Virus record (IMG/VR): IMGVR_UViG_3300044623_001146
Coordinates: 1-26,935 of that record
From: a virus
Length of the DNA: 26,935 nt
Strand: one strand, 5' to 3'
How positions within the stretch are numbered: position 1 is the stretch's first letter; every line of letters starts with the position of its first letter. The notes under the pieces were generated by a model. It was not told where the DNA came from. It ran no database searches and saw only the letters and a list, made by a program, of their open reading frames with translations. Made by a program: the position numbers and the translations under genes. Shown piece after piece: positions 12,044 through 12,414 of this stretch.

Positions 12044-12077
12044 ATATATAAAGAACCGGACTCTTGATAGAGTCCGG
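12044..12077 (-). terminator. Rho-independent terminator, minus strand
   Basis: CCGGACTCT and AGAGTCCGG form a perfect 9-bp stem with a 4-base loop (12056-12077). On the minus strand it is followed by TTCTTTATAT. It would end transcripts coming from the DksA-type gene or from the late promoter at 12190. The plus-strand side is followed by C residues, not U, so it is directional. Confidence 0.7.
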
Positions 12078-12175
12078 CCCCCCTGACGGTCTAAAGGTAG
12101 CGAAGTTCCTATAACGCATGAATAGCGTAATCAAGTTCGCAACTGTCTCCGAATCCTGACTCCCGGTATTCAATC
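12076..12175 (+). ncRNA. 23S rRNA domain IV-like segment (helices 69-71)
   Basis: Read on the plus strand this gap carries blocks of bacterial 23S rRNA in the native order. ACGGTCTAAAGGTAGCGAAG plus TTCCT (12086-12110) matches the E. coli H69/H70-71 segment at 22 of 25 positions. GCATGAATAGCGTAAT (12116-12131) matches 13-14 of 16. CTGTCTCC (12143-12150) is identical, and GACTC (12158-12162) follows at the right place. The H71 tip hairpin (about 20 nt in E. coli) is replaced by about 5 nt. GGCC at 12076 can pair with GGTC at 12088-12091, as in the base of H69. Comparison is from memory of the E. coli sequence. Local promoter and terminator signals point to the minus strand, so transcription of the rRNA-sense strand is unproven. 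Confidence 0.72.
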
Positions 12176-12189
12176 CCTCAAACCACATG

Positions 12190-12197
12190 TATTTATA
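12190..12197 (-). promoter_or_regulatory. T4-type late promoter TATAAATA, minus strand
   Basis: Exact TATAAATA on the minus strand, just after the stop of the DksA-type gene. It would transcribe the 23S-like segment in antisense and stop at the 12056-12077 hairpin, giving a transcript of about 130 nt with no ORF. Exact consensus copies also precede 13184, 15446 and 24376. Confidence 0.5.
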
Positions 12198-12204
12198 AAG
12201 GCAA

Positions 12205-12414
12205 TCATCTAGATCTTGCTGAAATTCTTTTGGCTCTGCGTAGATTTTCCTTATCCGCAGAACTAATCATAACCAGTTCAGGGGCAGTCTTATGTGCCCA
12301 GTCCATAAAGCCTATCATAGGTTTTGCTGTAGAGCAGCCTACGCAGGTTTCCGTGTCGGGTAGGATCTCCAGACGGGCAACAGGAATTGGTTTACCACAC
12401 TTAGCACAGTACAT
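12205..12414 (-). CDS. TraR/DksA-type C4 zinc-finger protein
   Basis: 69 residues. MYCAKCGKPIPVARLEILPD followed by TETCVGCS is the DksA/TraR zinc-finger signature: two CxxC pairs with the conserved I-P-x-x-R-L and P-D/x-T-x-x-C between them. It lacks the long coiled-coil N-terminus of DksA and so resembles the short phage/TraR forms that bind the RNA polymerase secondary channel and alter promoter choice, often rRNA promoters. The C-terminal half, including GFMDWAHKTAPELVMI, is unrelated to DksA. A GAGG site precedes the ATG inside the end of the upstream gene. Confidence 0.85.
   Translation of the reverse strand: MYCAKCGKPIPVARLEILPDTETCVGCSTAKPMIGFMDWAHKTAPELVMISSADKENLRRAKRISARSR

Follow-up and report, generated by a model that had tools for sequence, protein, structure and literature searches.

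A predicted late small RNA of T4-like phages with collinear complementarity to 23S rRNA domain IV

The locus and its transcription unit

The sequence analyzed here, referred to as the window, is the entire 26,935-base IMG/VR virus record IMGVR_UViG_3300044623_001146. A protein encoded in the window is similar to the peptidase of Pelagibacter phage HTVC008M (E 3e-41) and to that of T4-like cyanophages, and the window carries 11 tRNAs, spread out, amid which lies a permuted tmRNA of the alphaproteobacterial type (RF01849/RF04321; 14695-14987, minus strand). A tmRNA is also present in the cultured pelagiphage Mosig EXVC030M. Based on the HTVC008M-like peptidase, the type of tmRNA and the tmRNA of Mosig EXVC030M, the host of the phage is probably a SAR11-like alphaproteobacterium.

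The element under study is flanked by long open frames on the minus strand. Directly upstream, on the same strand, is the gene for a DksA-like zinc-finger protein (phrog_54; 12205-12414, minus strand), and in several relatives too a minus-strand ORF of similar size precedes the small RNA. No second copy of the element was found elsewhere in the window. The features of the locus are as follows.

12190-12197, minus strand: T4-type late promoter TATAAATA, an exact match
12049-12186, minus strand: predicted small RNA of ~138 nt, taken as the promoter-to-terminator span with predicted ends; 93-170 nt in relatives
12174-12187, minus strand: 5′ strand of the predicted closing helix P1, UGUGGUUUGAGGG, which pairs with ~12084-12098
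12143-12150, minus strand: GGAGACAG, complementary to 23S CUGUCUCC by sequence and 23S alignment; variable among phages
12120-12131, minus strand: second conserved block AUUACGCUAUUC, identified by alignment and complementary to 23S ~1970-1980 (GAAUGGCGUAAU)
12095-12110, minus strand: core hairpin AGG-AACUUCGCUA-CCU, near-invariant in 34 representative copies
12084-12098, minus strand: 3′ strand of P1, ACCUUUAGACCGUCA, which in addition complements the 3′ strand of H69 (23S ~1919-1929)
12050-12077, minus strand: predicted intrinsic terminator CCGGACTC-TATCAA-GAGTCCGG followed by TTCTTT, read from the sequence; T-tract present in 32 of 32 copies
12082-12164, plus strand: sequence resembling 23S domain IV by local alignment, on the strand opposite the predicted RNA; conserved in 51 further phage contigs

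The order of these features suggests an independent small-RNA transcription unit of the phage, with a late promoter and an intrinsic terminator, a prediction that is strongly supported by conservation. Read on the minus strand, a typical copy shows TATAAATA or a near match to it, then a few bases and the RNA, and lastly a hairpin rich in G+C with a T-tract after it. Within the window, TATAAATA occurs in eight exact copies, several of them just upstream of genes. Among the 32 testable distinct copies, a T4-type late promoter lies just upstream on the minus strand in 22, against about 0.5 expected from flank windows, and a match lies upstream on the plus strand in 4. All 32 distinct copies have a T-tract after the flanking hairpin when read on the minus strand, compared with 2 that have a T-run on the plus strand.

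Wobble pairs point in the same direction. In the core hairpin AAGG-loop-CCUU, eight variants are G-U wobbles if the RNA is the minus strand, as against none if it is the plus strand. Similarly, the P1 duplex of the window has a predicted energy of -15.2 kcal/mol for the minus strand versus -5.2 for the plus strand, and it includes several G-U pairs that are specific to the minus strand; the values for the window's clade are -15 to -17 versus -5 kcal/mol, and the mean advantage of the minus strand is 2.8 kcal/mol over 25 copies, which are not independent. Because the late promoter, the terminator T-tract and the wobble pairs all favor the minus strand, the functional strand is probably the minus strand, and the plus-strand assignment of the preliminary description, which had been made from the window sequence alone, is probably wrong.

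Some copies (L046-L048, L051, L097 and L030/L042-L045) have no recognizable late promoter adjoining the small RNA. In L046, L047, L048, L051 and L097, a hairpin with A- and T-tract flanks is located close beyond the 5′ end of the RNA, and it is possible that this hairpin is a bidirectional terminator.

Relationship to 23S rRNA and distribution among phages

The preliminary description had proposed that positions 12076-12175 contain, in an intergenic gap and on the plus strand, a remodeled piece of 23S rRNA domain IV. This proposal is borne out: the plus strand at 12071-12180 aligns locally to the domain IV segment of E. coli 23S with a score of 26.8, whereas the highest score among 2000 shuffles was 17.4 and that of any other place in the window 15.6. 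The matched stretch is E. coli ~1914-2005 with helix 71 deleted, and the blocks are in native 23S order, i.e., ACGGTC..AAGGTAGCGAA.TTCCT, the point at which H71 is missing, GCA.GAAT.GCGTAAT, CTGTCTCC and GACTC. A search with the Rfam LSU model (LSU_rRNA_bacteria, RF02541), as had been suggested at the outset, gave no match to the window element at E≤10, probably because the element is short and diverged. The relationship could be recovered in the opposite direction, in that a covariance model made from the phage copies alone identified two real bacterial 23S genes, on the antisense strand and at full length, with E=2e-12 and 8.5e-12. The model covers 12164-12082 of the minus strand in the window with E=3e-20, a value obtained with the window in the training set.

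Pattern scans of 2.9 million IMG/VR viral contigs yielded 51 further true copies, which together with the window gives 52 contigs and 34 distinct core sequences. Most of the scan patterns contained the core; however, in scans that left either GCGAARTTCC or AAAGGTAGCGAAGTTCC free, the free part was conserved in 12 of 12 true copies each, and thus the conservation of the core is not forced by the search. Chance pattern matches were discarded (L014, L016, L020, L021, L026, L027, L038, L040, L041, L095, L096, L098 and L099). Conservation in related phages is accordingly established, and it agrees with the earlier view that this is a remodeled, phage-maintained relative of rRNA rather than host contamination. 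The element was not found in a scan of ~85,000 cellular genomes, in which the sole pattern match was a true 23S gene containing two masked bases. BLAST searches of isolate phages with the window region, the consensus and a divergent copy gave only host 23S contaminants and chance matches, and no such RNA was found in Rfam or in isolate genomes. The covariance model gave nothing significant in HTVC008M, Mosig EXVC030M, the T4 tRNA region or PAK_P3; the best matches in these phages (E 0.04-0.06) are in coding regions and were taken as chance.

The family varies in form. Measured from promoter to terminator, the RNA ranges from a compact ~93 nt in L018 to ~170 nt in L005, and a permuted tmRNA and tRNAs are found near the L018 copy. 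Absence of the H71 tip hairpin, noted in the preliminary description, is typical of the copies; it is not universal, because L048 and L051 keep a hairpin at the H71 position, with an unrelated, self-complementary stem. The L048 contig also contains a manA RNA (RF01745; 7843-8046, minus strand) just above the gathering score. T4-type structural genes are present in some of the contigs checked. In the T4-like clade of L042-L045 and L030, the small RNA comes immediately after the gene for the major head protein and has the same orientation, and this clade has retained the most complete complementarity to 23S.

Complementarity and predicted fold

The sequence comparisons show a small RNA that would be collinearly complementary to domain IV of 23S rRNA, over H69-H70 and the following strand and usually skipping helix 71. 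The site is the intersubunit region H69-H70 of 23S rRNA. This collinear complementarity exceeds chance: when duplex energies that ignore internal structure were compared across 2.5 kb of 23S, the collinear site was the best pairing site for 16 of 16 copies. In some copies the duplex energies themselves beat those of shuffles by only a few kcal/mol, and L048 and L051 are not clearly better. Compared with real 23S loci, the window type is identical or G-U compatible at 25 of the 30 positions of 23S 1914-1943 and its longest run is 11 bp. The uninterrupted run of the L042 type is 24 positions when G-U pairs are counted, including 20 contiguous Watson-Crick pairs.

The pairing is nonetheless imperfect at particular positions. 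The core hairpin is complementary to 23S 1928-1943 with one C·A mismatch at A1938, and a C is opposite A1938 in 25 of 34 copies; A1918 and C1925-U1926 are mismatched in nearly all copies. Variation at 1915, 1917, 1922, 1923 and 1943 is mostly G-U compatible, but that at 1918, 1925-1926 and 1938 is not, and A1938, A1918 and C1925-U1926 are invariant in the 23S genes sampled. A 23S with G1938, which would repair the common mismatch, was found in none of 289 genomes from the class of G017 (probably Alphaproteobacteria); 83 of these genomes have A1938 and the remainder have no exact match to the pattern. Because the mismatches at A1938, A1918 and C1925-U1926 persist, selection for pairing alone is disfavored. 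The pairing may be short and tuned, or the conservation may come partly from the RNA's own fold or from a protein partner.

In the predicted fold, the 5′ and 3′ ends of the RNA are paired (P1), a middle arm contains block 2 and a hairpin displays AAxUUCGCUA, with the terminator following. For the window RNA, this fold leaves most of the loop segment AACUUCG unpaired, and the segment is exposed to a greater extent in L008, L012, L029 and L052; likewise, AAxUUCGCUA is largely unpaired in several copies and less cleanly so in others. Block 2 (UUACGCxAUUC) pairs in cis with upstream sequence in many of the predicted folds. RNAalifold on a MAFFT alignment did not recover a strong consensus structure because P1 and the middle arm shift position, and the detailed fold is therefore tentative.

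Possible roles

Phages take over translation with tRNAs, tmRNA and ribosomal protein S21 of their own, and an RNA directed at the ribosome could be a further means. On balance, and with somewhat better than even confidence, we favor the idea that the element specifies a small RNA of the late phase of phage infection, antisense to 23S rRNA, which would pair with free 50S subunits or new 23S and affect subunit joining, assembly or the fate of the rRNA. In the proposed scheme, a T4-like late promoter would start a non-coding RNA of ~140 nt that is ended by the intrinsic terminator; we infer transcription from these signals. The exposed hairpin loop AAxUUCGCUA would then probably pair with 23S UAGCGAAAUU at 1930-1940, together with the flanking blocks, the partner presumably being free 50S subunits or 23S rRNA that has just been synthesized. 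Occlusion of the intersubunit face could slow subunit joining or assembly, or alternatively the rRNA could be marked or protected; both inhibition and protection are compatible with the scheme. The timing would be late in infection, when host rRNA may be dispensable or in need of management. The RNA would most likely have originated either from a piece of a 23S gene captured in reverse or through selection for 23S pairing. We give about an even chance to the more general proposal that T4-like phages of aquatic bacteria have a widespread late RNA that, through pairing with H69-H71 in the host's 50S subunits or pre-rRNA, controls the capacity for translation or the assembly of ribosomes.

An antisense action is plausible because a synthetic antisense PNA against helix 69 is cited as inhibiting growth of E. 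coli (Kulik et al. 2017, as cited in PMC7038079). The PNA targets the same rRNA region as the phage RNA would, but it is not encoded.

We know of no earlier natural phage-encoded antisense RNA against ribosomal RNA. If the proposal is true, ribosomes would be controlled in a new manner, by a phage-encoded RNA antisense to the functional core of 23S, and the region that it pairs with would be a candidate for a natural antisense site of the bacterial ribosome. Phage small RNAs, a mostly unexplained class, would gain a testable function, for an RNA family that is absent from Rfam and for which at least 34 distinct core sequences are in hand.

The main alternative is that the minus strand produces a structured small RNA whose complementarity to rRNA is historical; its present partner would be a protein or an mRNA of phage or host, and its role the regulation of late gene expression. 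The promoter, the terminator and the conserved fold elements fit such an RNA, and the C at A1938 and the changes at C1925-U1926, which break the pairing with 23S, speak in its favor. On the other hand, conservation is highest at precisely the letters that complement 23S, which are located in the predicted loop, and no recurring second target site was found in 451 kb of phage contigs, so that we regard this alternative as rather unlikely. It is improbable, to a greater degree, that the plus strand is transcribed as an rRNA mimic, for example a decoy for rRNA-modifying enzymes, ribosome factors or rRNA-cleaving toxins. The preliminary description had put forward such a decoy, or a mini-rRNA, and the plus-strand identity to H69-H70 and the H71-like hairpin of L048 and L051 fit it, as does the MazF-mt6 toxin, which is cited as acting on 23S at the A site (in PMC4647672). 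A plus-strand decoy is nevertheless disfavored because of the promoter pattern (4 of 32 on that strand), the terminator after the left hairpin (2 of 32) and the wobble pairs, all of which favor the minus strand; in addition, conserved H69-H70 positions are altered, e.g., A1918 and C1925-U1926.

The two remaining explanations have very little probability. Ribosomal RNA genes are frequent contaminants, and BLAST with the consensus finds mainly host 23S in phage records, as would be anticipated for a contaminating rRNA gene piece or a functionless recombination relic, the latter having been raised in the preliminary description. Against this, 52 contigs from divergent phages have the element conserved, each time with its own terminator and with H71 either remodeled or deleted, and it was not found in the cellular genomes scanned; near-invariant core blocks in very divergent phages, accompanied by a promoter and terminator, likewise make a relic unlikely. 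Least probable of all is that the minus strand encodes a short peptide (..RNFATFRPS). Of 35 distinct sequences, 24 contain a start codon in frame, and the exchange of C and T opposite 1938 is synonymous (AAC/AAT), but the other 11 lack such a start, close relatives are set apart by frameshifts and stops, and the C-termini differ widely. There is no conserved open reading frame, and the coding interpretation was rejected because start, frame and C-terminus are not conserved.

Returning to the antisense RNA that we favor, it can be compared with several known systems. No phage RNA complementary to 23S rRNA was found in the open-access literature searched, and the view that no phage element of this kind had been described holds for those papers. 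RF02541 shares collinear plus-strand identity with the element over H69-H71; it differs in that the element is not recognized by Rfam, H71 is usually gone and the inferred transcript is the complement. Few small RNAs of virulent phages are known, namely RNAs C and D of T4 and sRNA1 and sRNA2 of PAK_P3 (PMC4933390). T4 RNAs C and D (rnaC, rnaD) are stable small RNAs of a T4-type phage located beside a tRNA cluster, but nothing in this part of T4 matches the covariance model. PAK_P3 sRNA1 and sRNA2 are late-expressed non-coding RNAs of ~100 nt in a virulent Pseudomonas phage (PMC4933390), and like the window RNA they are predicted or known late small RNAs near tRNA genes. They differ in that complementarity to 23S is not reported for them and that the best model matches in PAK_P3 have E of about 0.04, with nothing at sRNA1 or sRNA2. 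For sRNA2, its authors suggest that an 11-nt tRNA-like stretch may block ribosomes (PMC4933390).
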